16,339 nt of DNA, taken from positions 1 to 16,339 of the forward strand of contig JAJHQT010000011.1 of the NCBI GenBank assembly GCA_020833205.1. The letters are read 5' to 3'. The position numbers were made by a program, and so were the translations under genes. Below are positions 2,876-16,339 of this stretch, piece after piece. The notes beneath the pieces are model-generated. The model was not told the DNA's origin and ran no database searches. It was given only the letters and a program-made list of their open reading frames with translations. This DNA comes from Pyrobaculum sp. (lineage in GTDB: Archaea > Thermoproteota > Thermoprotei > Thermoproteales > Thermoproteaceae). Position 1 is the stretch's first letter, and every line of letters begins with the position of its first letter.

Positions 2876-4407
2876 GAGAGTTTCTTTTCCCCCGGTCAGT
2901 GGCTGTCGTAGGCGCTTCTCCCAAGGCCGACACCGTCGGTGGCCAGATCTTAATCCAACTGCTTAAGGGATTCCAAGGAAGAACGTATGCGGTAAATCCC
3001 AAGTATAGGTCTGAAAAAATCGGCGGCCAGGTGGTTCAGTTCTACGGCAAGGTTACACATCTCCCAGAGACGCCGGAGCTTGTGGTCGTGGCCACCCCTG
3101 CAAACACCGTGCCGCAGGTGGTGGAGGAGGCTGGCCAAGCGGGGGCCAGGGCCGTCGTGGTGGTGTCGGGGGGCTTCGCCGAGGTGGGGCGGAGAGATCT
3201 TGAGGAGGAGTTGGTAAGTGTGGCGAAGAAATACGGCGTTAGGGTACTTGGACCTAATTGTGTAGGCGTATACAACGCCTTCAATGGACTAGACACCATG
3301 TTCCTCCCGGCGGAGAAGGCAGCTAGACCTCCCCAAGGCCCCGTGGCCTTTCTTAGCCAAAGCGGCGCGGTGATGACCGCCGTGTTGGACTGGGCCGCTG
3401 AGGGGGGAGTGGGCGTCGGCATAGCGGTGAATTTTGGCAACAGAGCAGACGTGACCGAGAGCGATTTTCTCCAGTACCTAGACGAGGTGGAGGAGGTGAA
3501 GACCGTCGCGTTGTACCTCGAAGGGTTTAGATGGAGGGGAGACGCCGCCAGGTTTCTAGCATCGGCGAGGAGGATGAAGAAGCCTGTGGTGGTGTATAAG
3601 GCCGGCCGGGGGGCCGACTCCACGAGAGCCGCCGCCTCCCACACGGCGGCTATGGCGGGGAGCTATGAGATGTACAAGGCGCTTTTCAGACAGGCTGGCG
3701 TGGCGGCGGTAGACGACTTGGTGGAGCTCTTCGACGCGGCTAAGGCCCTCGCCATGTACAAACCTGTCAAGGTAGAGAAGGTGCTCGTGATCTCGTCGTC
3801 AGGCGGCATGGGGGTCCAGATAGCAGATGCGTTAAACGCGGCGGGTTTCTCAGTGCCGGAGCTCCCTAGGGAGGCTCAAGAGGAGTTGAGGAGACTTCTC
3901 TCCCCGATAGTTGCGGTCTCCAACCCCGTTGACTTGACCGGCGGCGGCGTAGATGAACACTTCGGCGCTGCGCTTGAAGTGGGACTTAAATACGTCGATG
4001 CGGCAGTGGTGGCCGCTTTGATACACCCCCCGGGCTACAGCGACAAATCAGCCGACTATATATTAGCCGCCTACGAGAAGTGGGGCAAACCCATACTAGT
4101 CGTGAGCTTCGGCGGCTCTCTACAGGTGAAGACGTTGGAGAAAAAACTAAGAGGGAAACTTGTGGTGGTGAACACGCCTAGCAGAGCCGCTAAGGCGTTG
4201 TCAGCCGTAGCGTTTTACGGCTCTAAAATATATAACGGCGGCGACAAGCGACGGCAAAAGCATGAGGCTGGCCAAGGCGTAGATAGTGGGGTCTCCCCGG
4301 CCTCTGGCGGCGTAGCTCCACAGCAATATGGGGGCTGTCACAAACCCGGGGCTTGTGGTGAAGGCGGTTTTGACGTAGGTATCAAAGGAGTTGGCGAAGA
4401 CTATTAA
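2872..4407 (+). CDS. ADP-forming acyl-CoA (acetyl-CoA) synthetase, alpha-subunit type
   Basis: Family members convert acyl-CoA + ADP + Pi to acid + CoA + ATP together with an ATP-grasp beta subunit; no beta gene is in the window. The N-terminus SVAVVGAS begins the CoA-binding Rossmann domain, and LGPNCVGV, FLSQSGA and ASHTAAMAGS are the succinyl-CoA-ligase-like motifs. H257 in ASHT matches the phosphorylated active-site histidine known in Pyrococcus alpha subunits. The GTG start at 2872 overlaps the upstream stop (GTGA) and fits the family N-terminus. Family proteins of this type are about 450-465 aa and should end near residue 455 (…RAAKALSAVAFYG). Here the frame continues another ~55 Gly/Lys-rich residues to 4407, reading antisense through the end of the permease gene. 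That tail is probably non-homologous read-through. Substrate specificity is not determinable. Confidence 0.85.
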   Translation: MREFLFPRSVAVVGASPKADTVGGQILIQLLKGFQGRTYAVNPKYRSEKIGGQVVQFYGKVTHLPETPELVVVATPANTVPQVVEEAGQAGARAVVVVSGGFAEVGRRDLEEELVSVAKKYGVRVLGPNCVGVYNAFNGLDTMFLPAEKAARPPQGPVAFLSQSGAVMTAVLDWAAEGGVGVGIAVNFGNRADVTESDFLQYLDEVEEVKTVALYLEGFRWRGDAARFLASARRMKKPVVVYKAGRGADSTRAAASHTAAMAGSYEMYKALFRQAGVAAVDDLVELFDAAKALAMYKPVKVEKVLVISSSGGMGVQIADALNAAGFSVPELPREAQEELRRLLSPIVAVSNPVDLTGGGVDEHFGAALEVGLKYVDAAVVAALIHPPGYSDKSADYILAAYEKWGKPILVVSFGGSLQVKTLEKKLRGKLVVVNTPSRAAKALSAVAFYGSKIYNGGDKRRQKHEAGQGVDSGVSPASGGVAPQQYGGCHKPGACGEGGFDVGIKGVGEDY

Positions 4408-4962
4408 AAACGTCGCGACGAAGGCCGGCATTAATATGGGCAAGACCACAGACATCATGGTCTTGAGCTCAGAGGCGCCTAAGATCCGCGCCGCCTCCAC
4501 AGCGCTTCTGCTGACGTAAGCCACGTAGGGGGCTAGGAGGACGTGGGCCATGGGTAGAGTGTAGGCGAGATGGGCCAAAAAGACGCCGACTGGCCCGAAG
4601 AGATCCACCCCGGCGTAGGTCTTCACGAGCGTCAACGCCGCCGCGAAGGACAAGGCCTCAGAAACCTCAGGCATCACCACGGCGACTTGAGAAACCGCCA
4701 GATACTTGTCTTGCCGTAGCACGTACGCCATGAACATCCCAAGTAGCGTAGCTGTAAAAGACACGGCGAGGGCCACCACGACGCTGTTGAAGACCGCCTG
4801 CCAAGCCTGATCCCATCCCAAGAGCGCTTGGTACCACTTCAAGGTGAAGCCGCCCCAGACGTAGGGCAACCTGCTGTTGTTAAAAGAGAGGGCCACCATA
4901 AGGCCGATGGGGACGTAGAGCGCCGCGGCGAGGGCCCAGGTGTAGAGGCGGAGGAGCCTCAT
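4201..4962 (-). CDS. ABC importer permease (PotC/FbpB-like), second permease
   Basis: A 253-aa inner-membrane permease of the MetI/BPD type, about six hydrophobic segments. The start ATG at 4962 overlaps the stop of the preceding permease as ATGA; the frame is open further upstream to 5112 but that part reads as an out-of-phase shadow of the other permease. The coupling loop is VEAARILGASELKTMMSVVLP (EAA motif), which contacts the ATPase. The C-terminus VKRYG and its stop at 4201 look native for the family. Its last 207 bases are antisense to the tail of the acyl-CoA synthetase frame. It is the third gene of the ATPase-permease-permease operon. Polyamine, iron, thiamine and sulfate importers share this layout, so the substrate cannot be given. 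Confidence 0.88.
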   Translation of the reverse strand: MRLLRLYTWALAAALYVPIGLMVALSFNNSRLPYVWGGFTLKWYQALLGWDQAWQAVFNSVVVALAVSFTATLLGMFMAYVLRQDKYLAVSQVAVVMPEVSEALSFAAALTLVKTYAGVDLFGPVGVFLAHLAYTLPMAHVLLAPYVAYVSRSAVEAARILGASELKTMMSVVLPILMPAFVATFLIVFANSFDTYVKTAFTTSPGFVTAPILLWSYAARGRGDPTIYALASLMLLPSLVAAVIYFRAVKRYG

Positions 4963-5690
4963 ATCGATATGGAGCGGATGGTCCTCACCACCACGTAGGT
5001 GGCCAGAAGCGACAAAGCGGCGAGGACAAGCGAGAGGACGCTTCCGCTGAAGAAGTCGCGGGCCTTGAAGTAGAGATCCCACACGTAGTTGCCGAAGGTG
5101 TAGACCTTCCACGCGCCGAGGACTGCCGGCATTACCACTTCGCCCATGGCGAAGAGAAATACCAATATAAAGGCGGCGGCGATCCCCGGCATAGTCAAGG
5201 GAAGCTCAACCCTAAAGAAGGCCTGTAGCCTAGAGGCCCCCAGAACCCTCGCCGCGTTGACAGGCGACTCGCTCAGCTTCTCCACAGCGGCGTAAAGCGT
5301 GAGGAGGGCGTAGGGCAGGTATTCGTAGACCATCCCCACCAACACGCCGGCGGCGGTGCCCCACAACACGACGCCGGTGAACCTCTCCACAATGGCGAAG
5401 AGCGCCAGGAGGGAGTAGGCCTTTAGGAGTGTTCCAACCCAGAGAGGCGCCGTCAAGAGGGCGAACTCAAGCTCGGAGCCGTACTTGGCTAGGTAGTACG
5501 CGGCTGGGTAGGCTACCGCAATGGCCACCACGGCGGTGGCCGCCGCCAGCAGGAAAGTCGTCGCAACCATGGAGAGAGACGGCAACTTGAGCTCGCCGCC
5601 GCCGGAGATGTAATACCCCAACGCCAAAAAGGGGACGTAGAATAGCAAAACGACGGAGGCGAAGGCCGCTAGGGCAACTCGCCTTATCAT
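4959..5690 (-). CDS. ABC importer permease (PotB/FbpB-like), first permease
   Basis: A 243-aa membrane permease with about six hydrophobic segments. The ATG at 5690 overlaps the ATPase stop codon (ATGA); the earlier in-frame part up to 5825 is a shadow of the ATPase gene and lacks hydrophobic character. The conserved cytoplasmic coupling loop is VNAARVLGASRLQAFFRVELP. Together with the next gene it would form a heterodimeric translocation channel in the cytoplasmic membrane, powered by the upstream ATPase. Translational coupling across the whole operon is suggested by the two ATGA junctions. Confidence 0.88.
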   Translation of the reverse strand: MIRRVALAAFASVVLLFYVPFLALGYYISGGGELKLPSLSMVATTFLLAAATAVVAIAVAYPAAYYLAKYGSELEFALLTAPLWVGTLLKAYSLLALFAIVERFTGVVLWGTAAGVLVGMVYEYLPYALLTLYAAVEKLSESPVNAARVLGASRLQAFFRVELPLTMPGIAAAFILVFLFAMGEVVMPAVLGAWKVYTFGNYVWDLYFKARDFFSGSVLSLVLAALSLLATYVVVRTIRSISI

Positions 5691-6673
5691 TCTGCTACAA
5701 AATAGACGTCTTTGGCGTCGAAGCCGAATTCCACCACGTCCCCCACCGCTATGGGGGTCTCTAAATCTACATACGCCTTGAATATGTGGCCGTTGCTCTG
5801 GATCTCCACCTTGAGGTAGTGCCATAGAAAGGTTATATCGATGACTTGTCCCTTGAATCTATAGGTGGGGCTGTTGCCTATCACCACATCCTCAGGTCGT
5901 ATAACTGCGTAGCCCTCTCTTGTTCCGCCTAGAAGAGACGCCGGGATGATGTTCGCCTCGCCGAAGAACTCAGCTACAAATCTATTCCTTGGCCTTTTGT
6001 AAAGATCCACCGGCTTCCCCACCTGCACAACCTCGCCCGCCCGCATCAACGCAATCCTATCCCCCACCTCCACCGCTTCAAACCTGTCGTGAGTCACGTA
6101 GATGAGAGTGAAGCCCAGCTTGTTGTGTAAAATCTTCAACTCCTCCAACAACTGGTTTTTTATGTCTAGGTCTATGTGGCTAAAGGGCTCATCTAGGAGC
6201 AGAACCTCCGGCTGAACCACTAGGGCTCTGGCAAGTGCCACGCGTTGTTGCTGGCCGCCGGAGAGCTGATATATCTTCCTCCCCATAAACTGCTGAGGCT
6301 CTAGACGAACCAGCTCCAAGGCCCACATGACCTGTCTCCTCACCTCCTCCTCCGGCAGCCTCTTCAACCTAAGTCCAAACGCCACGTTTTCAAACACGTT
6401 AAGATGTGGAAACAAGGCCAAATCCTGGAAAAGCATAGAGATCCTCCGCCTGTCCGGCGGAAGATTAGTTACATCTTTTCCTCCTATGTAGACCCTCCCA
6501 TGGGCAACGGGCGTCAGCCCCGCCACGGCCCTCAATAAAGTTGACTTGCCAGACCCCGAGGGGCCTAGGAGGACAAGCCCCTCGCCGGCCTCAACGTAGA
6601 GGTTGATGTTTTTCAACGCCAAAAAGTCGCCGTATTTCACCGCGACGTCTTTAAGCTCCACCGAAAGCCCCAC
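5687..6673 (-). CDS. ABC importer ATPase (PotA/MalK-like) with C-terminal TOBE region
   Basis: A 328-aa ATP-binding subunit. Visible motifs: Walker A GPSGSGKST (37-45), Q-loop LFQDLALFPH (Q83), signature LSGGQQQR (137-144), Walker B VLLLDEP (D161, E162) and the H-loop THD (H195). After residue ~235 comes a TOBE-like regulatory region (IRPEDVVIG…), typical of the polyamine/iron/sulfate/maltose subgroup. The GTG at 6673 is chosen because a TATA box lies about 23 nt upstream, and no other start codon lies in frame nearby. It is the first gene of the three-gene importer operon. A solute-binding protein normally sits next to such an operon; none is present on either side in this window. Confidence 0.93.
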   Translation of the reverse strand: MGLSVELKDVAVKYGDFLALKNINLYVEAGEGLVLLGPSGSGKSTLLRAVAGLTPVAHGRVYIGGKDVTNLPPDRRRISMLFQDLALFPHLNVFENVAFGLRLKRLPEEEVRRQVMWALELVRLEPQQFMGRKIYQLSGGQQQRVALARALVVQPEVLLLDEPFSHIDLDIKNQLLEELKILHNKLGFTLIYVTHDRFEAVEVGDRIALMRAGEVVQVGKPVDLYKRPRNRFVAEFFGEANIIPASLLGGTREGYAVIRPEDVVIGNSPTYRFKGQVIDITFLWHYLKVEIQSNGHIFKAYVDLETPIAVGDVVEFGFDAKDVYFVAE

Positions 6674-6690
6674 GCCACCCCCATAAAGAC

Positions 6691-6701
6691 AGTATAAAAA
6701 C
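6691..6701 (-). promoter_or_regulatory. TATA box of the ABC importer operon
   Basis: On the minus strand the sequence reads GTTTTTATACT, centred about 23 nt upstream of the GTG start at 6673. It sits in the 109-nt divergent region shared with the DUF998 gene. Confidence 0.5.
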
Positions 6702-6753
6702 TAACGCTCGGTAATACCTGTCCCAGGGCCGCTTCAACAAGTTAAGTAAAAAT

Positions 6754-6764
6754 TGTTATAAAGG
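6754..6764 (+). promoter_or_regulatory. TATA box of the DUF998 gene
   Basis: TGTTATAAAGG is centred about 25 nt before the ATG at 6783, preceded by A-rich bases that could serve as a BRE. The GGAG within it is about 17 nt from the ATG, too far to be a useful ribosome binding site. A leaderless transcript is predicted. Confidence 0.5.
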
Positions 6765-6782
6765 AGATAAAAATTTACTGTT

Positions 6783-7328
6783 ATGAACTTAGGAAGACTT
6801 CTTCTATTAATTGGGTCTCTGCAATTTATAATTGCGATGCTCGCCGCAGAACAGCTCTACCCAGGCCACAGCCCCCTCCACAACTACATAAGCGACCTCG
6901 GCGCCTTAAAGGCCCCCACCTCTCTACTCTTCAACTTCAGCGTCGTCCTCCTCGGCCTGCTGGGCATGGCGTCGGCCTTCCTCCTAAGACATGAGCTAGG
7001 CCGTCTGGGGGCTTTGGTGCTTGCGGTGGCCGCCGCAGGCGCAGTGGGCGTCGGCATATTCCCAGAGGACTACGGACTACCCCACGGCGTCTCGGCGCTC
7101 ATCACATCCCTCCTAGGCGCAGTGGCCGTGATCATAATGGGGATCAGACGGGGAGGTGTGTATAAGCCCTTGGGCTTGGCCATGGGGGCGGTTTCGCTGA
7201 CCGCTCTGGCTTTATTCGTGCCTAGAGTCCAGACGCCTCTTGGCATCGGCGGCGTGGAGAGGCTCATAGCGTACCCAATTCTTATATTCTTCATATTATA
7301 TGCCATAGGTGGCGAAAAGACTAGTTAA
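6783..7328 (+). CDS. DUF998 family integral membrane protein
   Basis: A 181-aa, strongly hydrophobic protein with about six predicted membrane segments. The segment YPGHSPLHNYISDLGAL after the first helix, and the later FPEDYGLPHGVSALITSL, are the hallmark conserved loops of DUF998 proteins, which are widespread in archaea and have no assigned biochemical role. The conserved polar residues (His, Asn, Ser, Asp) next to the membrane suggest a functional pocket, but this is inference. The ATG is supported by the TATA box. The last 20 bases overlap the next gene in another frame, so the two are probably co-transcribed and translationally coupled. Confidence 0.85.
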   Translation: MNLGRLLLLIGSLQFIIAMLAAEQLYPGHSPLHNYISDLGALKAPTSLLFNFSVVLLGLLGMASAFLLRHELGRLGALVLAVAAAGAVGVGIFPEDYGLPHGVSALITSLLGAVAVIIMGIRRGGVYKPLGLAMGAVSLTALALFVPRVQTPLGIGGVERLIAYPILIFFILYAIGGEKTS

Positions 7329-7599
7329 AATAGTCGCGGCCATACCCGCCGGCCACCGCCATCTAAGAATGGCGCTCTTTTTCGACGATGGAGAAGTGGT
7401 GTTGTTAACTGAGGCCCTCGCCGCCGGCATAACACGCGCCTATGTAGACGTCGTGACGCACCCCACGAGGAGGGGAGTCGTCCTCTGCGTCCAGGAGATA
7501 CAAGGCAAGCCGGGCTACGCCAAGACGCAATTAATAGAGTGCGGAGACGAGGAAGAGGCGGCAAAAGAGATAGAAAACCTCCTAAAGCCCGCCGACTAG
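7309..7599 (+). CDS. Small conserved-looking hypothetical protein
   Basis: I do not recognise this 96-aa protein. It starts with GTG at 7309, the first start codon after an in-frame TAG, inside the end of the DUF998 gene (20-nt overlap). It looks like a compact soluble alpha/beta protein: a basic N-terminus, strands such as MALFFDDGEVVLL and RGVVLCVQEIQG, and an acidic helical C-terminus (DEEEAAKEIENLL). It has two cysteines but no metal-binding pattern. Codon use matches its neighbours and the opposite strand has no better candidate. Its TAG stop shares the palindrome CTAG with the stop of argH on the other strand. Confidence 0.7.
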   Translation: MAKRLVKIVAAIPAGHRHLRMALFFDDGEVVLLTEALAAGITRAYVDVVTHPTRRGVVLCVQEIQGKPGYAKTQLIECGDEEEAAKEIENLLKPAD

Positions 7600-8885
7600 A
7601 GAATCGGAGGCCTGCAGAACACAAGCCGCGCAGAGGCCGTCTTTTTCACCTCTTCCGGATTAGCAGAGCCCGCAGTAGGCCTCCGCAGTGCTTGTTCTAC
7701 GTTTAGCAACTGGGCGGCTCCCCTCTTTATCTGCTCAGCCACCTGGAAGTAGGCAGTGCGGAAGGGAGTCCCCACAAGCGCGATGGCCTCCGCGGTGTCT
7801 GACGACGTGGCGTAGTGCCTCTCGGCGTCTTGTCTAGACTTGGCGCAGTTGAACTTCATCTTTTCCAGAAAGTCGGTAAACACCTCGAGTCCCTCCTCTG
7901 CAATTCTCAAAACGGCCCAGATATGCCGCGTAGCTTCCTGGAGGTCGAGGCTGTAACCCATGCCTATTTTCGCCGCCACGGCGTGCAGCGCCACGAGGTG
8001 CCCCAGCGCCTCTGAGGACCTGGCCCTAAACACTTCAAGCGTCACGAGGTTGCGTTTATGCGGCATGATGCTACTCGTCGAGACGTGGTCGTCTGGCGTC
8101 TCCACATACCCCACCAGGGGGCTGTTCCACCTTATGAAGTCGTCCACGGCCCGCGACAGCTCGGCCAGGAAGGAGGCCACGACGGAGGATAGAGTCAACG
8201 CGAAGAGCCTCCCCCCAGAGGCGTAGAGGGCGTTCTCCACCACGTCCTCGAAGCCAGCCAGCTTCGCAAGCCTCCGCCGGTCGATGGGAGTCTGGACTCC
8301 GCCCGCCGGCCCCGCGCCGAGTGGAGAACGTTTCAGCAAATCCTCCACGGCCTTAAGCACGTGGAGGAACTCGGCCGCAACCTCGTCCACCGCCAGTAGG
8401 TAGTGGCCGAAGGTTATGACCTGCGCGGGCTGGAAATGAGTGAAGCTTGGCATGACACAGTCCGCGTACTCCAAAGCCCTCTTCGCCAAGACGCATCTAA
8501 GCCTCTCCACGGCCCGCCGCAATGTCCCAACACGCCGGAGAGCCGCCAGCCTAATCGCGGCGGCGACGTGGTCGTTACGCGACCTCCCAAGCCCAACCCA
8601 GCCCCCCACCTCCTCCCCCAGTCTGTCTATAAGCCACTTCTCCAACGCCTCGTGTACGTCTTCAAACCCGCCTTTGACGAGCTCGGCGGGGTCCACCTCT
8701 TTAAGCGCTTTAAGGATCGCCTCAGCCGCCTCCCGCGGCACGGCGCCTACCTCGGCGAGGTGTTTCACATGCGCCTCCATCACCTTCACCACCTCCTCGG
8801 CGATCTCCACGTCGTCTTGAAGGCTGGACGTGTACCGCCTCACCAACTCCCCGCCTCCTCCTATCCAAGAACGGTAGAACCCCAT
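7596..8885 (-). CDS. argH: Argininosuccinate lyase
   Basis: Splits argininosuccinate into arginine and fumarate, the last step of arginine synthesis; a soluble tetramer of the fumarase/aspartase superfamily. The 429-aa protein shows the expected signatures: GLGRSRND (substrate binding, 98-105), FTHFQPAQ with H150, and the mobile catalytic loop TSSIMPHKRN (270-279) with Ser271-Ser272. The loop has Thr where most family members have Gly before the two serines, and RSRND is followed by His instead of Gln; both are mild departures. The length is slightly short of the common 450-470 aa, mainly at the C-terminus. The ATG at 8885 follows the stop of the upstream zinc-ribbon gene by six bases (AGGTCA), so the two are probably one transcript and translationally coupled. 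The stop TAG overlaps the convergent gene at CTAG. Confidence 0.95.
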   Translation of the reverse strand: MGFYRSWIGGGGELVRRYTSSLQDDVEIAEEVVKVMEAHVKHLAEVGAVPREAAEAILKALKEVDPAELVKGGFEDVHEALEKWLIDRLGEEVGGWVGLGRSRNDHVAAAIRLAALRRVGTLRRAVERLRCVLAKRALEYADCVMPSFTHFQPAQVITFGHYLLAVDEVAAEFLHVLKAVEDLLKRSPLGAGPAGGVQTPIDRRRLAKLAGFEDVVENALYASGGRLFALTLSSVVASFLAELSRAVDDFIRWNSPLVGYVETPDDHVSTSSIMPHKRNLVTLEVFRARSSEALGHLVALHAVAAKIGMGYSLDLQEATRHIWAVLRIAEEGLEVFTDFLEKMKFNCAKSRQDAERHYATSSDTAEAIALVGTPFRTAYFQVAEQIKRGAAQLLNVEQALRRPTAGSANPEEVKKTASARLVFCRPPIL

Positions 8886-8891
8886 TGACCT

Positions 8892-9047
8892 TTACGTGAT
8901 TTCTATTCTTTCTGTTAAAAGCTCGGTGCCGCATCTAGGACAGCAGTAAGTAATTACTACGTACCGCCTAGTTTGATTCTTGCGGTTGCACTCCACGGGT
9001 TTCACAGGCCTCTTGCAGTTGGGACACACTACGGTTCGTTGCCCCAT
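8892..9047 (-). CDS. 51-aa zinc-ribbon protein upstream of argH
   Basis: A short gene found by reading the minus strand upstream of argH: ATG at 9047, TAA at 8892, 51 residues. It has CPNC (C8, C11) and YCCPRCG (C35, C36, C39), the four-cysteine pattern of a zinc ribbon, with a basic middle segment (CNRKNQTRRY) and an acidic end. A TATA box is centred 26 nt upstream of the ATG, and only six bases separate its stop from argH. It lacks the E-D-x-G-E tail of LysW, so it should not be an amino-group carrier. Possible roles are a nucleic-acid or protein-binding regulator of argH, or a small unrelated protein. The Cys pattern, promoter and spacing make it likely real; the function is unknown. Confidence 0.75.
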   Translation of the reverse strand: MGQRTVVCPNCKRPVKPVECNRKNQTRRYVVITYCCPRCGTELLTERIEIT

Positions 9048-9065
9048 CGCCTGCTAGAAAAATGT

Positions 9066-9079
9066 ATATTATAAAACCC
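9066..9079 (-). promoter_or_regulatory. TATA box of the zinc-ribbon/argH transcript
   Basis: On the minus strand GGGTTTTATAATAT precedes ATG 9047, centred about 26 nt upstream. It lies in the 49-nt gap after argG, so argH can be transcribed separately from lysW-argG. Confidence 0.5.
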
Positions 9080-9096
9080 TTACCCACTTATATAGA

Positions 9097-10302
9097 CTAT
9101 AAATTGTTGCCCTTACGGCGGCGGAGAGCAGTAAGGGAATGTAGACTCCACATTTCGATAAAGCCTCTCGCCTCCTCGTCGGTGGGGTACCACCCTGCGC
9201 TGTAGTCGGCGAGCTCCTTGCTGTAGCCCCCGAAGGGCGACTCGCGGCCCACCACCCAGAGGCCGCCGCGGTACAGCTTCACCTTGACCTCCCCCGTGAC
9301 CCACTTCTCCATCTCCTCGGCGGCCTTCTCCAAGGCGGCTCTCAACGGCTCTACCCAAAGCCCTTGGTACACCAAGTCTGCCCACTGCGGGTCGAGCATG
9401 TAGTGTTTAAACCTAAGCTCCCTCGGCGTCAAGACCAGCTTCTCTAAGTCTCTGTGGGCGTGGAAAAGCACAACGGCGGCGGGCGCCTCGTACACCTCCC
9501 GGCTCTTAAACCCGACGAGTCTGTTCTCCACGTGGTCTATCCGCCCTACGCCGTTTGCGCCGCCGATGTGGTTAAGCGTTGATACAAGCGAGACGGAGTC
9601 CATCTTCTCGCCGTTGAGCGACACAGGCAACCCCCTCTCGAAGCCGATGATGAGGTATGTCGGCTCAGCAGACGCCCTCTCAGGCGACACAGTCCACTTA
9701 AAGGCCTCCTCAGGTGGCTCGGCCATGGGGTCGTCCAGAGGGCCGCCTTCGATGGACCTAGACCAGAGGTTGTCGTCGATGCTGAACTTCTTATGCTCCT
9801 CGCCGACAGGCAGGCCGTGGCGCCGGGCGTACTCTATCTCTTCGCTCCGCGTCATACCCCAGATCCTCGCCGGGGCGATGAGCTTCAAGTCGGGCGCCAG
9901 CGCCTTCACCGTCACGTCAAACCTCACCTGGTCGTTGCCTTTGCTGGTGGAGCCGTGTGCCACCGCATCTGCGCCGACCCGCCGCGCCACCTCCACCACC
10001 TTCTCCGCAATAAGAGGCCGGGCTAAGGCGGTGCCAAGCGGATATACCCCCTCATACATCCCGTTCATCAAGACGGCGCGTGATATATACACCTCGGCGA
10101 ACTCCCGCCTGGCGTCTACATAGAAATGTTGCACAGCGCCGGCCTTGTACGCCCTCTCCTCGATCTTAGAAAAATCGTCCTCCTGACCCACATCCACCGT
10201 AACTGTGTAGACCTCCGCCCCGAACTTCTCAGAAAGCCACTTAATCGCTACAGTGGTGTCTAAACCGCCGGAGTATGCGAGGACTATCTTACTCGCCCCG
10301 AT
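9097..10302 (-). CDS. argG: Argininosuccinate synthase; no canonical start codon in frame
   Basis: Joins citrulline and aspartate using ATP to make argininosuccinate. The essential PP-loop AYSGGLDTT and the preceding SKIVL are encoded between 10296 and about 10255, and [23 protein letters not shown] and [11 protein letters not shown] follow. The first ATG/GTG/TTG in this frame is GTG 10197, which would delete the PP-loop, so it cannot be the start. Upstream of the PP-loop the frame holds only ATC GGG GCG AGT AAG ATA and then TAA, the stop of lysW, which is in the same frame. An ATG at 10313, inside the end of lysW, is in another phase; a -1 slip on TCG-GGG (10301-10296) would join it to give a 405-aa protein starting MASKSGASKIV. 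Alternatives are AUC/AUA initiation or a missing G. The coordinates given are the open part of the frame. Confidence 0.9.
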
Positions 10303-10311
10303 TTACTCGCC
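10289..10311 (-). repeat. Two copies of GGCGAGTAA at the lysW/argG junction
   Basis: On the minus strand GGCGAGTAA occurs at 10311-10303 (end of lysW including its stop) and again at 10297-10289 (start of argG), 14 nt apart. Nine identical bases this close are unlikely by chance. A simple ancestor with one copy would have the overlap ATGGCGAGTAA, ending lysW and starting argG as MASKIV. Confidence 0.7.
10296..10301 (-). other. Candidate -1 slippery site of argG (TCG GGG)
   Basis: Codons 5-6 of the frame opened by ATG 10313 are TCG GGG, followed by CGA. A tRNA on GGG can slip back one base onto GGG again, and the next codon becomes GCG in the argG frame. Without the slip the frame ends at TAG after nine codons. 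Proposed from sequence logic only. Confidence 0.35.
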
Positions 10312-10488
10312 ATAGTCCTCCACGTCTCCCTTGAACTCTTCAAGGGTAACTGACCCGCCCTTAATCCTCACTATGTACCTGGCGCCGCAGGTGGGGCAAC
10401 TGGCTATTTCGCCGTCTATCACATCCTCCGGAAGCTCAAACTCGGTGCCACACACCTTACACTGTACTACCAGTTTTTGAGTTGCCAT
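10303..10488 (-). CDS. lysW: LysW amino-group carrier protein
   Basis: The small carrier whose C-terminal glutamate holds the alpha-amino group of aminoadipate (lysine) or glutamate (arginine) while LysZ, LysY, LysJ and LysK act on the side chain. With the start at ATG 10488 the protein has 61 residues: zinc ribbon CKVC…CPTC (C10, C13, C31, C34) and the acidic tail VEDYGE, the variant here of the usual E-D-W-G-E with the required C-terminal Glu. ATG 10494, two codons earlier, is in frame, but the TATA box is centred 25 nt before 10488, favouring the shorter form. It is followed directly, in the same frame, by argG after TAA. LysZ ends 63 nt upstream. Confidence 0.93.
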   Translation of the reverse strand: MATQKLVVQCKVCGTEFELPEDVIDGEIASCPTCGARYIVRIKGGSVTLEEFKGDVEDYGE

Positions 10489-10506
10489 AAGCATTAAAAC
10501 TCATCT

Positions 10507-10520
10507 GGTATAAAAATTTT
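10507..10520 (-). promoter_or_regulatory. TATA box of lysW-argG
   Basis: Minus strand AAAATTTTTATACC, centred about 25 nt upstream of ATG 10488. A second AT-rich TATA-like stretch (TTTATAAAG) lies near 10539. The T-run could also help end the lysXYZ transcript. Confidence 0.5.
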
Positions 10521-10557
10521 TTCTCACTACAACTTCTTTATAAACATTTACAACTAT

Positions 10558-11343
10558 CTATATATTTCTCACTATATGAGTTCCAGCTCCGTCGAGGGCC
10601 GCGTCTATAGGCGAGTCCATGAGGCCGCTGGAGATCACCACCTCGATGCCCAGCTTCGCCGCCTCCGCCGCCATGAGGAGCTTCCTCTTCATCCCGCCCC
10701 GGACCTCTTCGCTCTTCGTAAGCGCCTCCGCCTCCTCAGGCGCCAGCCGCGGCACCACCTTGCCCCCGACGATGAGGCCCTCAACGTCGCTTAGGAGGAT
10801 AAGCTTTTCCGCCTTCAGCTCCCGGGCCACGTCGAAGGCGAGCTGGTCGCCGTCTACGTTGAGAAGCTCGCCCCGCTCAGAAACCGCTATGGGCGAAAGA
10901 ACCTTAAGCGGAGGAGGCCTCAGCTTCTCCACGGCGACTGAGGTTATCCTCCCCACGTACCCCCCGTCCACAACCCTCTGCCTACCCCTCTCGTCGACTA
11001 TCAATACCTTCTCTTTACGTTTCGCCTTCACCACGCCCATGTCGGCGCCTGTGAGCCCCAGCGCCTCTACGCCGAGGGCGTGGAGCGACGAGACGATCTG
11101 CTTGTTTATCCAAGACATGGCCATGACGAACACCTTAAGCGTCTCCCAGTCCGTGTAGCGGCTCACCAAGCCGCCGGGGTGAGTGAGGAACTTCGGCTCA
11201 ATGCCCACCCTCTTCAACAGCTCGTTCACAAGACAGCCGCCGCCGTGCACCACCACAGCCCTATCTGCGTACTTGGGCAGGTTCTGCACCACCTTGCTGA
11301 GGTCTTTACACGCCACGGATCCGCCTATCTTTACCACTATCAT
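10558..11343 (-). CDS. lysZ: [LysW]-aminoadipate/[LysW]-glutamate kinase
   Basis: Phosphorylates the side-chain carboxylate of the LysW-bound amino acid, an ArgB-type amino-acid kinase. The 261-aa protein has VKIGGS at the N-terminus, [22 protein letters not shown] and GGMKRKL near the C-terminus, all expected positions for this family. Because LysW is encoded next door and no N-acetylglutamate genes are seen, the LysW-dependent kinase is preferred over true ArgB. ATG 11343 overlaps the lysY stop as ATGA. Whether it serves lysine, arginine or both cannot be read from this sequence; bifunctional enzymes are known in Sulfolobus. Confidence 0.93.
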
Positions 11344-12398
11344 ACAGGCGCCAGCGGTATCTGCCTAAGCCCCTCGTCCTCCGGGAAGCCCATGGCCACG
11401 TTGAAGGCCTGCACCGCCTGGCCAGAGGCGCCGCGGACCAAGTTGTCTATGGCGGAGAAGGTCACCACCCTGTTCAGCCGGGGGTCCAGCTCAAAGCCGA
11501 TGTCCACCAGGTTGGAGCCGAGGACGTACTTCACGTTGGGGTACCTGGCCAACCCCAGCCTGTCGCGGATAATGCGGATGAACTTAGAGTCGCCGTAGAG
11601 CGCCCGGAAGTACTTCCACATGTCGGCCTCCGCAGGCAACTTCTCCACGTAGACGTGGCCTGTGGCGAAGATCCCCCTAACCAAATCCACGGCATGAGGC
11701 GTAAAGGCCACCTTGACCTGCCGGCCGGCCAGCCTGCTGAGCTCCTGCTCGATCTCGGCGATGTGGCGGTGGTGCACAGGCTCATAGGGCCTAACCACGT
11801 AGGTCCTGAAGCTGTGTAGGTCAACTACGGAGCCCTCCGCCCCGGCGCCGCTGGACCCGATCTTGGCGTCTACCACAGGCGGCACGTCGCGGATAAGCCC
11901 GAACTTGGCCAGGGGCGCAAGCATGAGGATAGACGCCGTCGCCATGCAGCCGGGCACCGCCACCAGCCTAGCCCCCACAAGCTCCTCCCGGTGGAGCTCC
12001 GGCTGGCCGTAGACCGCCTTCTGCAACAGGTCCGGGTACGGGTGCGGCTGGGGCCACCTGTACCACTCCACGTAGGCCTCCGGGTCTTTCAGCCGGAAGT
12101 CGGCGCTTAGGTCGAAGACGGCCACCCCAGACTCGTACAGCTTAGGCACCCACTTCACCGACTCGCCGTGGGGCAACGCCAGGAACACCACGTCGGCCTT
12201 CAACGCCGCGTCTATGGAGGGCTCCACGAACTTGAGCTGGGTGAAGCCCCGGAGGTTTGGATGGACTCTGTAGACGTACTCCCCCTTGAACCTCCTCGAA
12301 GTGGCGCAGACCACCTCGACGCCGCTGTGCTGCAACAACAGCCGCAACAGCTCGCCGCCGGTGAAGCCCGAGGCCCCGACTACGCAGACCCGCTTCAT
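11340..12398 (-). CDS. lysY: [LysW]-aminoadipyl/glutamyl phosphate reductase
   Basis: NADPH-dependent reduction of the LysW-bound acyl phosphate to the semialdehyde; ArgC-like fold. The 352-aa protein begins with the dinucleotide-binding motif [14 protein letters not shown] (8-21), has the catalytic cysteine in [10 protein letters not shown] (C151) and the active-site histidine in [11 protein letters not shown] (H235). [12 protein letters not shown] (179-190) also matches the family. ATG 12398 overlaps the upstream lysX-like stop (ATGA), and its own stop overlaps lysZ in the same way, so X-Y-Z form one translationally coupled unit. The length and all key residues are normal. Confidence 0.94.
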
Positions 12399-13068
12399 AC
12401 CAGCTCAGCCACCGCCGTAGCCTCCTCCCGCGTCTCTACAGGCGGCACGGGGTCCACGTCGATTACGTATAGCCTCCCCCCGTAGTCGCCGAAGGTCACC
12501 CTGGCGTAGAAAAGCCCCAGCTCCTTAAGCACCTCCGCCGCAAGCCCCTCTGCGTTTTTCACCGTGGCGAACACCGTCACGAGGCGGTGCGGCCTCGGCA
12601 CCACCACAGACACCTTGGCCAGCGGGTTCCGCATATACATCCTGTGCTCCACCACGCTCTTAGCCCCCTCCACGCTTGTGACAACTCCGTCTAAGCCGAG
12701 CCGCCACGCCGTCATCAAAAGCCAAGGTCCCTCCACCTCCACCTTCTCCACAGAGAAGTCAGAAGACACCACAGCAAACGGCGGGCCGAACTTAGGAAGC
12801 CACGTCAGTCTGTTAAGCGCAGAGAGAACAGCGCCGTAGGGATTTATGCTACGCGCCGACATCGCGCCGTATACAACAGACGCGTAGGGATTCCCCACCC
12901 TAAGAAGAACCGTGCCATACAGCCCATGGACAGGCGTCTCGGAGACATTTAAGACCACGGGCTTTAAACCTCTAGAAATCAACGCCTCAGCTATATATTT
13001 CTCAGAAACAGTGGGGCGATCTGTGACGATGTAAATCGCCCCACTTTCCCCTCTGGCCCCAGATCCAT
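12395..13068 (-). CDS. lysX: LysX-like ATP-grasp homologue, degenerate, with a 5' frame break
   Basis: By position (first gene of lysXYZ) and weak similarity this is the ligase that attaches the amino acid to LysW. The conserved LysX N-terminus is recognisable (AIYIVTDRPTVSEKYIAEAL) but lies before the only canonical in-frame start, TTG 12982. A TATA box is spaced for a leaderless ATG at 13068, which opens another phase and stops at 12991 after 25 codons; one -1 slip on a GGGG run (13059-13056, 13050-13047 or 13042-13039) yields a 224-aa protein. LysX proteins have about 280 aa. The ATP-binding Lys is absent (GPWLLMTAW where LysX has a V-L-K-P core), the Gly-rich loop and the N-T-x-R-G-G segment are missing, and the metal-binding N-E-V-N reads IDVDP. 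It may be an inactive paralogue. Confidence 0.65.
13039..13044 (-). other. Candidate -1 slippery site of the lysX-like gene (GTG GGG)
   Basis: Codons 9-10 from ATG 13068 are GTG GGG followed by CGA; slipping one base back gives GCG ATT TAC and enters the conserved frame. Two earlier NNG-GGG pairs (CTG GGG, GAG GGG) would also work, since the conserved frame has no stop from 13081 onward. Confidence 0.3.
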
Positions 13069-13085
13069 ACCCCCCACCTCAGGTC

Positions 13086-13097
13086 ACTATATAAATC
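13086..13097 (-). promoter_or_regulatory. TATA box of lysXYZ
   Basis: Minus strand ATTTATATAGTG, centred about 24 nt upstream of ATG 13068. This spacing equals that of the other leaderless genes in the window and marks 13068 as the intended start codon. Confidence 0.55.
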
Positions 13098-13448
13098 TTT
13101 CTCTTTAATACAAAGACGTAATAGGGGCCCCAGAGGCACACGGAGACTACAAGGGGCGGTGAGCCGAACTTGAGGACGCCCACTATGGGGTGGAGGGGTA
13201 GACGGTTTTTCTCTTAACTATAATAGATTTTCTGATTAGGCGATCGCTTTACCTAAGCCACGGAGTGACAGACACCGAGGCGGAGAGATGCGGCGTCGAG
13301 GGATGTGAAAATCTTAGTTAACGAGTGGCGCTTATCGACGTGCGTTCGATGTAGTTATCTCTTTGGCGAGGTAGAAGAGGTGGACGAACTTCAAGCGTTG
13401 CACGTCAAGTTTTTGTTGCTTATTACAAAAATCTCTCAAAACCAGAAA
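13098..13448 (+). other. Long gap between the divergent lysX and thrC units; no secure gene
   Basis: This stretch holds no recognisable gene. From about 13118 to 13206 it is GC-rich and self-complementary (for example GGGCG with CGCCC at 13154-13182, and CCAC with GTGG at 13180-13194) and is followed by a T-run (GGTTTTTCTC) on the plus strand, so it could encode a structured RNA; alternatively the minus strand has a short frame, GTG 13183 to TGA 13079, of 34 hydrophobic residues ending just before lysX. A TATA-like AACTATAATAG sits near 13216-13226. Downstream, GTG 13305 to TAA 13457 encodes 50 residues including CVRC, with a GAGGGAT before the start, but its codon use is unlike the neighbours. 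None of these is convincing. No tRNA was seen. Confidence 0.4.
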
Positions 13449-13459
13449 GGTTATTAAAC
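13449..13459 (+). promoter_or_regulatory. TATA box of thrC operon
   Basis: GGTTATTAAAC is centred about 24 nt before the ATG at 13478, the same spacing as at the other leaderless genes. The GTG at 13528, in the thrC frame, is about 74 nt away, so the promoter points to 13478 as the start. Confidence 0.5.
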
Positions 13460-13477
13460 GGAGCTTTTTTCACTGCC

Positions 13478-14622
13478 ATGGAGGGGATTTCGGGGACAGT
13501 TATCTTAGGTGTATAAACTGCGGCGCGGTGTATCCCGCAGACTATAGACTATTCCGATGTCCAAGGTGCGGGGGGCTTCTTGAAGTGGTCGTGAGGGAGA
13601 AGCACTGGAACCCGAGGGGGAGGGGCGTGTGGCGCTACGCCTCTATGCTCCCTCTGAAGAGCGGCGTGTCGATGGGAGAGGGCATGACCCCCCTCATCAA
13701 ATCTAACCTAGACGGCGGCTTATATATAAAGTTCGAAGGCGCCAACCCCACCGGCAGCTTCAAAGACAGAGGGATGGCGCTCGGCGTCACTGTGGCCAAG
13801 GAAAGCGGCGCCTCTAAGGTGGTGGTGGCCTCCACCGGCAACACAGCAGCCTCAGCCGCCGCCTACGCCGCCAGGTCCGGGCTTAAGTGCTACGTGGTTC
13901 TGCCGAGGGGAAACGTGGCGAGGGGGAAGCTGGTGCAGGCGGCGCTCCACGGCGCGGAGCTGGTCATGGTAAACGGCCTCTTCGACAAGGCGCTTGAGTA
14001 CGTGTTGAACTACGGCACGAAGTACGCCTACCCGCTGAACAGCTTTAACCCCTGGCGTCTTGAGGGGCAGAAGACCCTCGCCTTTGAGGTGTACGAAGAG
14101 CTGGAGTGTCCCGACTACGTGGTGGTGCCGGTGGGCAACGCCGGCAACATATCGGCAATCTGGAAGGGCTTCAAAGAGCTGGCAGAGCTGGGGCTCTGCA
14201 GAAAACTCCCCAAAATGGTGGGGGTGCAGGCGGAGGGCGCCGCCCCCCTAGCCAGGGCGTGGGAAAAGGGGAGGTCTGAGCCTTTGTTTGTAGACGAGCC
14301 AGATACCGTGGCCTCCGCCATAAAGATAGGAAAACCTATAAATTGGCCAAAGGCCTTCGCCGCTGTGAAGGAGTCTGGCGGCTTCTTCGTGACGGTGTCT
14401 GACGCCGAGATCCTAAAGGCGCAGAGGCTTTCGGCGTCGAGAGACGGCATCGGGGCCGAGCCGGCGGGCGCTGCGTCTGTGGCCGCAGCGCTTAAGCTCA
14501 AGCTAAGCGGCACAGTCGTCGCCGTGGTGACGGGCCACGCCCTCAAGGACCCCGACGTGGTGGAGATAAACGCCAGAGAGGTTAAAAACGCCGACGAACT
14601 TGTGGCGTTGCTGGAGCAATGA
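13478..14622 (+). CDS. thrC: Threonine synthase, with a 5' frame break
   Basis: Converts O-phosphohomoserine to threonine with PLP. The PLP lysine lies in TGSFKDRG (codon at 13762), STGNTAAS binds the cofactor phosphate, and VPVGNAGNISAIW is also typical. The archaeal N-terminal zinc ribbon needs two Cys pairs: LRCINCG (13507-13524) and FRCPRCG. The first in-frame GTG, 13528, leaves out the first pair; no ATG, GTG or TTG lies in that frame back to the stop at 13372. The promoter-matched ATG 13478 opens another phase (12 codons, ending TAA 13516) and one -1 slip at TCG-GGG (13490-13495), or at GAG-GGG earlier, restores a 381-aa protein with C12, C15, C28, C31. The stop overlaps the aspartokinase ATG (ATGA). 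A conservative call would start at 13528 with 364 aa. Confidence 0.9.
13490..13495 (+). other. Candidate -1 slippery site of thrC (TCG GGG)
   Basis: Codons 5-6 from ATG 13478 are TCG GGG, the same codons at the same distance as in argG. A one-base slip back makes the next codon GAC and enters the thrC frame. Unslipped translation gives MEGISGTVILGV and stops. Confidence 0.35.
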
Positions 14623-15611
14623 AGCCTGTGGTCAAGATCGGCGGCTCCCTCCTCAGGTCGGCCAGCGATTTCGTAAAGGCGGCCGAGTTCATCTTGTCGT
14701 TTAAAGAGCCGCCGGTGGTGGTGGTCTCGGCGATAAAAGGCGTCACAGACATGTTGCTGGAGCTTGAGAAGACCAGGAGCTACCTCATGTACGAGGAGAT
14801 CCTCCACCGACACCTCGCCGTGGCGCGGCCGATGGGCGTCGAGGAGGCTGTGGCGCCTCTTTTAAAGGAGCTTGAGGAATCTCTCAGGCTGCCCCGGGCC
14901 GAGTGGACCGCCGACCACTTCGCCTCCTTCGGCGAGAGGCTCTCCGCCGCAACCCTCTACGCAGTTCTGCGGCGCGTAGGGGCGAAGGCCAGCCTCTACG
15001 TGGCGCCCATACGGACAGACAGCAAATTCGGCAACGCCGAGCCGCAGAGGCTGGAGGCGAGAGGCGAAATAGCCGAGCCCGGCGTCGTGGCTGTAGTCAC
15101 GGGCTTCATCGGGAGAGATGGAGAAGGCCGCTTCACCACGGTGGGGAGAGGCGGAAGCGACTACACCGCCACCTACATCGGGAAAGAGATAGGCGCCAGG
15201 AAGGTGTCATTAATTACCGACGCCCCTGGCGTAATGACGGCAGACCCCCGCGAGGTGGAGGACGCCGCCGTGCTCCCCCTCCTCTCCATACAAGAGGCCG
15301 TGGAGGCGGCCAAGGTAGGCGCCAAGAACTTCCACCCCCGGACCTTCCTTCCGGCGATAGAGGGGGACATGGCTGTGGAGGTTAGGAACTACCACAGCAG
15401 GGGCACTTTAATCGCCAACATCTACCCCCCGCCGCCCTACAAGATAGTGACGAAATGCGGCCAAGGCAGTTGCGTAGTGGGGCTCGCCGCCTCCGACTTG
15501 ACGAAGCTGGGCGGAACCCCCCTCGGCAGATACAGCGTGCGGCTGAACATCCCGCCCCGGCAGGCGCACGAATTCCTAATCAAGCCGTATATCAAATATA
15601 TAAACTGGTAA
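14619..15611 (+). CDS. Aspartokinase, short form without full ACT domains
   Basis: Phosphorylates aspartate, first step toward threonine, methionine and (in the DAP route) lysine. The 330-aa protein has VKIGGSLL (K6), VSAIKGVTD, FGERLSA, TTVGRGGSDYTA and DAPGVMTADPR, the complete amino-acid-kinase catalytic set, ending near RNYHSRGTLI. Most aspartokinases are 400-460 aa because two ACT domains follow; here only about 55 residues remain (from about YKIVTKCGQG), too little for a pair of ACT domains, so feedback by lysine or threonine may be reduced or absent. Start ATG overlaps the thrC stop (ATGA). The operon thrC-aspartokinase-asd on the plus strand supports a threonine-branch role. Confidence 0.92.
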   Translation: MKPVVKIGGSLLRSASDFVKAAEFILSFKEPPVVVVSAIKGVTDMLLELEKTRSYLMYEEILHRHLAVARPMGVEEAVAPLLKELEESLRLPRAEWTADHFASFGERLSAATLYAVLRRVGAKASLYVAPIRTDSKFGNAEPQRLEARGEIAEPGVVAVVTGFIGRDGEGRFTTVGRGGSDYTATYIGKEIGARKVSLITDAPGVMTADPREVEDAAVLPLLSIQEAVEAAKVGAKNFHPRTFLPAIEGDMAVEVRNYHSRGTLIANIYPPPPYKIVTKCGQGSCVVGLAASDLTKLGGTPLGRYSVRLNIPPRQAHEFLIKPYIKYINW

Positions 15612-15623
15612 GAGGGATTATAT

Positions 15624-16339
15624 ATGGACCGCCTTAAGGTATATATCATCGGCGCCACGGGACTCGTGGGCCAGCGATATGTGCAGCTCCTCGCCAGCCA
15701 TCCGTGGTTCGAGATCGTGGGGCTCGCCGCCTCTGAGAGGAGCGCAGGCAAGACGCTGAGCCAGATCGGCTGGGCGCTGGAGGAACCGCCGCCTCCCCAC
15801 CTGGCCGACATGAAGATAGAGAAAATCGACGTGGACAAGATACCCAAGGTGGACTTCGTCTTCTCCGCGCTCCCCAGCGAGGTGGCGGCCAAGGTGGAGC
15901 CCGAGCTGGCGGCGCGGGGACACACGGTGGTTTCAAACGCCAGCAACATGAGGATGGACCCCGACGTTCCTCTGGTCGTGCCGGAGATAAACCCAGAGGA
16001 CCTCGGCTTGTTGGAGCGGCAGAGGGCGGAGAGAGGCTGGAGAGGCGCCGTGGTGAAGAAGCCCAACTGTACCACCACCATCCTCAACCTCCCCCTCAAG
16101 CCCGTTCTGGATGAGTGGGGCATAGAGAGGATCCACGTGGTCACCATGCAGGCGCTGAGCGGCGCAGGCTTCGCCGGAGTCCCCAGCGTGGCCATTGTCG
16201 ACAACCTCATACCGTACATACGGGGCGAGGAGGACAAGGTGGTTGCTGAGACCAAGAAGATCCTCAAGAAGGACTTCGAGATTTACGTCACCACCACCCG
16301 CGTGCCCGTCCTCGACGGCCACACGGAGGTGGTGTATGT
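15624..16339 (+). CDS. asd: Aspartate-semialdehyde dehydrogenase, 3' end outside the window
   Basis: Reduces aspartyl phosphate to aspartate semialdehyde with NADPH, the step after aspartokinase. Starting at ATG 15624, 238 codons are visible with no stop. Motifs: YIIGATGLVGQRYVQLL (NADP-binding, 7-23), FSALPSEVA, VVSNASNMRM, and the catalytic cysteine in KKPNCTTTIL (C149), then QALSGAGFAGVPS. These features fit the archaeal/fungal branch of Asd. GAGGG at 15612-15616 provides a ribosome binding site eight bases before the ATG, and only 12 bases separate it from the aspartokinase stop, so it belongs to the same transcript. The remaining third of the protein lies beyond the window. Confidence 0.95.
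   Translation, partial: MDRLKVYIIGATGLVGQRYVQLLASHPWFEIVGLAASERSAGKTLSQIGWALEEPPPPHLADMKIEKIDVDKIPKVDFVFSALPSEVAAKVEPELAARGHTVVSNASNMRMDPDVPLVVPEINPEDLGLLERQRAERGWRGAVVKKPNCTTTILNLPLKPVLDEWGIERIHVVTMQALSGAGFAGVPSVAIVDNLIPYIRGEEDKVVAETKKILKKDFEIYVTTTRVPVLDGHTEVVY

Follow-up and report, generated by a model that had tools for sequence, protein, structure and literature searches.

Candidate starvation-responsive frameshift switches at the 5′ ends of amino acid genes in Pyrobaculum and its relatives

In a stretch of 16,339 nucleotides from Pyrobaculum sp. (assembly GCA_020833205.1, contig JAJHQT010000011.1, positions 1 to 16,339), called the window below, three genes of amino acid metabolism, argG, thrC and a lysX-like gene, are encoded in a frame other than that of the ATG in front of them. 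In each of them a short leader open reading frame (ORF) starts at this ATG, reaches a GGG codon preceded by G (G_GGG) and continues with a codon for an amino acid of the gene's own pathway. Together with 13 further genes of related genomes that follow the same rule, this arrangement is, as judged by sequence comparison, very probably best explained by amino-acid-specific frameshift switches triggered by starvation (hungry-codon frameshifting). An original prediction made from the window had proposed a common recoding or leader device that ties genes for Lys, Arg and Thr to a cellular signal; the comparison supports it, and the likely signal would be the charge of the pathway's own transfer RNA (tRNA).

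The upstream ATG out of frame, the G_GGG within ten codons and the −1 shift needed to reach the enzyme frame, as predicted for the three genes, are all found in the sequence (Table 1), and translation with a single −1 slip after ATG...GGG gives an uninterrupted protein in each case. The conserved N-terminus of ArgG indeed lies in the −1 frame, which contains no ATG, GTG or TTG ahead of the motif YSGGLDT; an ordinary argG start further upstream is excluded by an in-frame stop, that of lysW, just ahead of the enzyme frame. The earliest in-frame start of thrC is at 13528, within the conserved zinc-ribbon region, part of which (RCINCG) is encoded ahead of it. TCG GGG forms codons 5-6 in both argG and thrC, as had been noted. 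For the lysX-like gene the emphasis had been placed on GTG GGG at codons 9-10; this site exists, but it is not the sole candidate. Three G_GGG sites are counted there, because an orthologue (L047) and a paralogue (L049) retain only the first.

The break was followed through 11 genomes of the window's genus, six of a second genus that is probably Thermoproteus, as the separately found contigs L193 and L194 are named, two of a third genus within that family and genomes from another family of the order (f3); G and L numbers denote single genomes and loci. The nearest genome, G001, has a ThrC 97% identical to that of the window, so that these two are close kin and not independent. The argG break is present in the window, in 11/11 Pyrobaculum genomes and in 6/6 of the second genus, and that of the lysX-like gene in the window and 11/11 Pyrobaculum genomes. 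The thrC break with TCG GGG AC was found in the window, in 11/11 Pyrobaculum genomes and on both Thermoproteus contigs, and in neither of two metagenome-assembled genomes of Thermoproteales (L195, L196). Its leader varies by whole codons across loci, with one to three codons between ATG and TCG.

Homopolymer runs are in general prone to error, and a sequencing or assembly error, or a set of pseudogenes, would be one possible cause of a broken frame. The comparison of 5′ ends suggested with the original prediction, together with the run lengths, decides this point: the argG orthologues of Pyrobaculum and of the second genus retain the out-of-frame ATG, independent genomes have GGGG and not GGGGG, and both the run length and the phase at argG are the same in the 11 Pyrobaculum and the six second-genus genomes. 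Furthermore, the break recurs in many genes of basic metabolism. Error or decay is thus refuted by the orthologues and has next to no probability.

A scan for genes whose leaderless ATG or GTG is out of frame covered 800 kb each of G008, G006 and G005, with 2775 ORFs that carry a coding signal. The genes added are carA, lysX, pheA, ilvB, proC, trpB2, leuA, trpD, trpS, hisG and those for cysteine synthase, transketolase and homocitrate synthase, i.e. 11 genes of amino acid synthesis, the transketolase and one aminoacyl-tRNA synthetase (TrpRS, trpS). Part of the list comes from codon-blind scans; trpB2 and homocitrate synthase were added through manual inspection once the idea had been formed. 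The products of carA, lysX, ilvB, leuA, trpD, trpS and hisG, the TrpB-like protein and homocitrate synthase match NCBIfam models above the cut-off (homocitrate synthase also NF002085, a broader isopropylmalate synthase model); prephenate dehydratase (pheA), proC, cysteine synthase and transketolase remained below the cut-off in the family search. The leader ORFs of all 16 genes comprise 4-25 codons. At −1 sites the sensed residue is Arg in carA, Lys in lysX and homocitrate synthase, Phe in pheA, Val and Leu in ilvB, Leu in leuA, Trp in trpB2, trpD and trpS, Tyr and Trp in transketolase and Cys in cysteine synthase. A +1 shift on CCC_C applies to proC (CCC then CCA, Pro) and hisG (CCC then CAT, His). 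The sensed codons of the 16 genes are thus sense codons of 12 amino acids, with the shift −1 in 14/16 genes. The leader of trpB2, which opens the trp operon, reads ATG TCG GGG TGG TAG; GGG TGG was expected there, an expectation recorded only afterwards.

Most of these sites are conserved. The Phe site of pheA occurs in 15/15 loci (10 of Pyrobaculum, 5 of the second genus), the Arg site of carA in 18/18 of the family (11, 5 and 2 for the three genera) and 2/3 in f3, the Lys site of lysX in 16/16 of the first two genera and 0/2 of the third, and the Val site of ilvB in 18/18 (11, 5 and 2). The Leu site of ilvB is present in 18/18 inspected sequences (16/18 in a count limited to the first 10 codons) and that of leuA in 15/15 (10, 3 and 2). 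The counts are 14/15 for proC, 8/10 for hisG, 7/7 for trpD, 5/5 for cysteine synthase and 2/2 each for trpB2, trpS, transketolase and homocitrate synthase, those for cysteine synthase and the last four genes covering the loci at hand. The hisG leader, like that of thrC, varies by whole codons (1-3 between ATG and CCC). Omitted were split matches of G038 (pheA, ilvB, carA, leuA), G001 for pheA and hisG (no match), leuA (no close match) and trpD (contig cut), G009 for lysX (no close match), G003, G008 and G009 for trpD and two other second-genus genomes for leuA.

A second line of evidence is the match between codon and product: after the slip site, the codon in the starting frame specifies an amino acid of the gene's pathway in 16/16 genes, taken at the last site. 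The product of the background probabilities for such a match is about 1e-20, the background being how often a product codon follows an in-frame NNG GGG within genes (6897 cases) or, for proC and hisG, a CCC_C (2353 cases). When the sensed residues were shuffled among the genes, 300,000 tries gave at most 11/16 matches; with one gene per product set, 12/12 were observed and at most 8/12 obtained by shuffling. The product sets were assigned by the author of the analysis from general pathway knowledge, among them Trp for trpS (its synthetase), Tyr/Trp/Phe for transketolase, Val/Leu/Ile for ilvB and Lys/Arg for the lysX-like gene. A codon-blind filter for −1 shifts on GGGG returned 17 ORFs, of which 11 are members of the set (10 genes, trpB2 twice), all 11 with a product codon; a +1 filter on CCCC returned eight, with hisG as the only member. 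The six others of the 17 were taken as chance: one from within proC, whose Leu codon does not match (G005 1605068), and five unannotated ORFs (G006 491600 and 1165081; G005 1540744, 1508114 and 428951).

Two other candidates were set aside. folD (G008 1873244, CCC then CAT) was rejected, as the stretch apparently lies within the conserved end of the upstream gene, likewise in G005, and a Cas4-like ORF, named by eye (G006 529648, minus strand), with ATG TTG GGG TGG ahead of an in-frame ATG is probably a chance hit.

Variation at the sensor codon follows its meaning in the leader frame. The pheA sensor is TTT in 8 and TTC in 7 loci, while the residue of the enzyme frame is Tyr, Leu, Arg or His. 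Similarly, the thrC sensor (ACA 9, ACG 5) and that of ilvB (CTC or CTT) vary synonymously, while the enzyme-frame residue sharing the varying base changes. The Arg sensor is CGA, which makes up 2% of Arg codons.

The direction of the shift fits re-pairing of a single tRNA. In all 16 genes a codon that could be re-paired in the peptidyl (P) site, by −1 on G_GGG or +1 on CCC_C, stands directly ahead of the sensor codon. In the −1 genes with a single site the base after GGGG is never G (A, C or T), so that only a −1 movement re-pairs the glycine tRNA with GGG, and this fits the enzyme frame. At the CCC_C of proC and hisG the preceding base is not C, apart from the earlier of the two sites that hisG has in G005; there only +1 works, and the enzyme frames lie at +1. 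Re-pairing in both directions could occur at two places, the first ilvB site (GGGGG) and that first hisG site of G005. A variant, G_GGA, is found at the Val site of ilvB in G009 and in argG and carA of genus g5 of f3. Transcriptional slippage, which would add a G or drop a C in the messenger RNA (mRNA), might likewise act on four-base G or C runs early in the transcript. However, four-base runs are short for such slippage, the G and C runs would need opposite errors, the argG site lies inside an operon and the sensor codon would be left unexplained; this explanation is extremely improbable.

The leaders appear to begin at the transcription start. Over 131 leaders (argG omitted) the A/T share reaches 0.80-0.98 in positions −27 to −21 relative to the leader start, as would be expected for a TATA box in front of a leaderless mRNA. 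TATA-like boxes were located at 23-25 nt in 15/15 leaders, a spacing that is partly built in, as boxes equal in A/T were resolved toward 25 nt; the profile over the 131 leaders is free of this bias. Furthermore, the enzyme frame lacks any ATG, GTG or TTG between the leader start and a point 30 nt beyond the last slip site in 103/149 leaders of 12 genes: thrC 12/14, argG 14/18, the lysX-like gene 12/12, ilvB 16/18, pheA 9/15, carA 12/18, proC 5/14, lysX 10/16, leuA 11/15, homocitrate synthase 2/2, transketolase 0/2 and cysteine synthase 0/5. Outside this count are trpB2, trpD, trpS and hisG, whose sites create a GTG or ATG themselves.

The proposed switch would work as follows. Transcription would start at or beside the leader ATG or GTG; for argG in the window the ATG overlaps lysW. 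The ribosome would read one to eleven codons and arrive with a slip-prone codon in the P site, GGG after G or CCC before C. With plentiful sensor aminoacyl-tRNA it would decode the sensor codon and terminate after the short leader. With scarce sensor aminoacyl-tRNA the aminoacyl (A) site would stay empty and the P-site tRNA could re-pair, −1 on G_GGG or +1 on CCC_C; the slipped ribosome would then translate the enzyme, whose pathway supplies the amino acid that is lacking. Sites in tandem would form an OR gate for Val/Leu in ilvB, Pro/Lys/Arg in the lysX-like gene, Tyr/Trp in transketolase and Ile/Thr in thrC. Ile can be made from Thr, and the Ile site was seen in 8/16 thrC loci examined. The sequences show the architecture, how well it is conserved, the match between codon and product and a shift direction that fits re-pairing; that the shift takes place on the ribosome, that it rises with tRNA starvation and how large its effect would be are what we infer from them. 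Slippage of one tRNA in the P site next to a vacant A site under limitation of aminoacyl-tRNA is a described mechanism, as excerpts of a review have it (PMC8211752).

Several observations weigh against this switch. The structural filter on its own is unspecific: with GAGG or GAAA as the tetramer it again returns 17 ORFs, as many as with GGGG, and tetramer enrichment was therefore dropped as proof. In-frame G_GGG at codons 2-11 of ordinary genes makes up 198/16,260 codons (0.0122) vs 0.0145 inside genes, a depletion too slight to be used as support, and argH in the window begins ATG GGG TTC in frame; G_GGG alone is thus no barrier to reading. The slip codon of proC, CCC, also encodes Pro, so that Pro starvation would slow the preceding step too. 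Ordinary-looking starts are found for trpE (7 loci), for hisB, hisF and hisH of G008 and, judged by the ORFs, for argH, lysC and asd. The switch is lost in argG and lysX of the third genus, which keeps those of ilvB, leuA and carA, in hisG of G009 and G011, in proC of G009 and in the thrC of L195 and L196.

The ordinary early G_GGG codons also bear on a constitutive form of recoding, in which a constant fraction of ribosomes would always shift at G_GGG near the start, whatever codon follows. The retention of G_GGG (or G_GGA) at every −1 site counted suits this idea, as does the general notion that ribosomes close to the start may be less stable. However, it fails to predict the match of codon and product in all 16 genes or the synonymous variation of the sensors, and G_GGG is nearly as common early in ordinary genes as in their interior. 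Constitutive recoding is accordingly rated very unlikely.

A last group of points against the frameshift concerns start codons. The remaining 46/149 leaders do have an enzyme-frame start nearby, and in six genes the site itself makes one (GTG in trpB2, trpD, trpS, transketolase and cysteine synthase, ATG in hisG), so that initiation without any shift is possible, and a shift not compulsory, in those leaders and genes. These cases fit an attenuator-like or upstream-ORF device, in which a ribosome stalled on the sensor codon exposes or drives initiation in the enzyme frame elsewhere, with no frameshift at all. A short leader with codons for the product amino acid is a hallmark of leader-peptide control, and in leuA of f3 a TTG directly before the Leu codon CTC overlaps the enzyme-frame ATT in a way that resembles competition between starts. 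This rival was weighted up because of the 46 leaders. It has no start codon to work with in the 103 others, including all 12 of the lysX-like gene, and the ability of the codon ahead of the sensor to re-pair in just the needed direction would be superfluous for initiation; we regard it as improbable, if less so than constitutive recoding. The starvation-triggered frameshift remains the preferred reading.

In the window the switch is repeated within one operon of the LysW pathway, with the gene order lysX-like, argC, lysZ, lysW, argG. Its first gene carries the sites for Pro, Lys and Arg, and its last gene, argG, a site for Arg only. This operon logic counts in favour of the switch, as does the Trp site that trpB2 and trpD have in common. 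By its family name LysZ serves the synthesis of both Lys and ornithine/Arg, and the Pro site may reflect the link from ornithine to Pro. The lysX-like protein itself had no useful match in sequence searches of Pfam, NCBIfam or the PDB. Its predicted model (mean predicted local distance difference test score 79.8, middle part weak) matches in a structure search ArgX of Sulfolobus tokodaii (3vpb; E-value 2.7e-10, template modelling score 0.79 by query) and also the bifunctional LysX/ArgX of Thermococcus kodakarensis (5k2m). The three sensed residues agree with a role in the LysW pathway, as the small ATP-grasp fold predicted for 12395-13039 would suggest. A second lysX-like copy adjoins thrC in P. 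oguniense (G007, L049) and has a single GGG CCA (Pro) site.

Table 1 Features of the candidate argG, lysX-like and thrC switches in the window (positions in the 16,339-nucleotide stretch)
Feature	Position	Strand	Support
argG enzyme frame, reached via −1 shift	9097..10296	−	TIGR00032/NF001770
argG leader ORF, 9 codons, ATG GCG AGT AAA TCG GGG CGA GTA AGA TAG (ATG 10313-10311, stop 10286-10284)	10284..10313	−	sequence
argG switch: G_GGG (10299-10296), then Arg codon CGA (10295-10293)	10293..10299	−	window, 11/11 Pyrobaculum, 6/6 second genus
lysW carrier protein; last codons overlap the argG leader ATG	10303..10494	−	NF041070, score 64.1, below cut-off 75
lysZ, [LysW]-aminoadipate/[LysW]-glutamate kinase	10558..11343	−	NF010662
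argC/lysY of the LysW operon	11340..12398	−	TIGR01850 argC
lysX-like enzyme frame, −1 relative to leader; small protein, predicted ArgX/LysX ATP-grasp fold	12395..13057	−	
lysX-like leader ORF, 25 codons, off the enzyme frame, ATG GAT CTG GGG CCA GAG GGG AAA GTG GGG CGA ... TAG (ATG 13068-13066, stop 12993-12991)	12991..13068	−	
lysX-like switch 1: G_GGG (13060-13057), then Pro codon CCA (13056-13054)	13054..13060	−	Pro in 12/12 loci incl. window
lysX-like switch 2: G_GGG (13051-13048), then Lys codon AAA (13047-13045)	13045..13051	−	Lys in 10/12 loci incl. window
lysX-like switch 3: G_GGG (13042-13039), then Arg codon CGA (13038-13036)	13036..13042	−	Arg in 11/12 loci incl. window
ATTTATA, TATA-like box of the lysX-like operon, centred 25 nt from leader ATG	13090..13096	−	
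thrC TATA-like box TTATTAA, centre 24 nt from leader ATG	13451..13457	+	sequence
thrC leader ORF, 12 codons, ATG GAG GGG ATT TCG GGG ACA GTT ATC TTA GGT GTA TAA (ATG 13478-13480, stop 13514-13516)	13478..13516	+	
thrC switch 1: G_GGG, then Ile codon ATT	13483..13489	+	Ile site in 8/16 thrC loci examined
thrC switch 2: G_GGG, then Thr codon ACA	13492..13498	+	window, 11/11 Pyrobaculum, 2/2 Thermoproteus contigs
thrC enzyme frame, reached via −1 shift	13495..14622	+	TIGR00260

Outside the family there are leads, not results. In argG of f3 genus g5 (four loci) the leader reads ATG GAT AAC YTG GGA, then CGA, where a −1 movement from GGA to GGG is possible. In genus g8 of f3 the five argG loci fetched (L060, L064, L065, L067, L068) have a leaderless GTG ... 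NTA AAC, then CGG, in the same wrong phase. All 12 leuA loci of f3 shown (L287-L298) contain ATTGCTC, that is TTG followed directly by the Leu codon CTC, the enzyme frame reading ATT GCT one base earlier; a switch of the same kind may act here at the start site. For thrC, 7/28 loci printed (L199, L205, L213, L225, L230, L232, L234; Sulfolobales, Desulfurococcaceae, Thermofilaceae and others) show an upstream NTG GAA/GAT ACA leader one frame off, with the Thr codon and a stop soon after, some of them with a later in-frame start. Whether a general starvation code extends over the Thermoproteales and perhaps other Thermoproteota, the slip type changing by lineage (G_GGG, G_GGA, CCC_C, the NTA AAC of argG and the TTG-CTC over ATT of leuA in f3, and the short NTG GAA ACA leader of some thrC loci in Sulfolobales, Desulfurococcales and others) and the sensed codon being kept, stands at about an even chance.

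Some other breaks of frame were seen on the way. A CoA-ligase-like ORF at 2872-4407 of the window has a terminal stretch that looks, by eye, out of frame with its body and points to a possible frame break near the end, which bears on the original remark that the other long frames are intact. Two ORFs of G008, rhomboid-like at 207066 (plus strand) and thiolase-like at 1880884 (minus strand), both named by eye, look frameshifted away from the start, possibly by assembly errors, and are not of the leader type.

The use of a leader that senses tRNA charging is familiar from transcription attenuation in the trp, his, pheA and ilv operons of Bacteria. Both systems have a short ORF with codons for the end product. 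In contrast to attenuation, the leader here overlaps the enzyme gene, the output would be set by the choice of frame, and there is one codon per input instead of a run of codons. As a consequence of the overlap there is no room for a terminator: no gap for a terminator or antiterminator between leader and gene was found in the three genes of the window.

Among recoding events, canonical −1 frameshifting uses a heptamer X XXY YYZ and two tRNAs, whereas the sites described here have the form NNG GGG N, at which one tRNA would re-pair. In Archaea, fucA1 of Saccharolobus solfataricus also involves −1 recoding; there a heptamer joins two ORFs of a glycosidase gene, and no sensed amino acid is described in the excerpted text (PMC8211752). 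In the same excerpts of this 2021 review fucA1 is given as the only −1 case reported in Archaea (PMC8211752). The bacterial gene for release factor 2, prfB, has, according to parts of a second review, a short 0-frame leader with most of the protein in another frame, a slow codon in the A site that is decoded with the help of the protein it controls, and re-pairing of the P-site tRNA (PMC5009743). The genes described here have such a leader and would resemble prfB in the rest: no enzyme-frame start lies nearby in 103/149 leaders, one does in 46, and the codon fits the product in 16/16 genes. The prfB case differs in being one gene, with a stop codon in the A site, a +1 shift and a Shine-Dalgarno stimulator; the present set comprises 16 archaeal, leaderless genes with sense codons and mostly −1 shifts.

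The closest relative in mechanism is the hungry-codon frameshifting of Gallant and colleagues, in which, as excerpts of both reviews describe, the A site is vacant for want of an aminoacyl-tRNA and a single tRNA in the P site slips (PMC8211752, PMC5009743). The genes described here have a re-pairable codon in the P site and a codon of the pathway product in the A site (16/16), the limitation of the tRNA being putative. The known phenomenon is a laboratory or stress effect, whereas here it would be regular gene control. The 2016 review considers, in the excerpted part, that such frameshifting could serve trans-frame proteins functional in starvation and states that no examples were known (PMC5009743). 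No report of such a system was found in a literature search that covered a minority of subscription journals and no preprints. Events of this type are known; a gene set controlled by them is apparently new as far as seen.

If the proposal is true, simple start-codon rules of any kind misplace the real N-termini of these enzymes, and sensor codons can aid the assignment of function, as for the lysX-like gene (Pro/Lys/Arg), transketolase (Tyr/Trp) and homocitrate synthase (Lys). The old question whether starvation-induced slippage has a use would become testable. Frameshifting itself would then gauge the charge of individual tRNAs in natural gene control, and a group with leaderless mRNAs would have an archaeal counterpart to bacterial attenuation that seemingly needs no RNA switch or regulatory protein.

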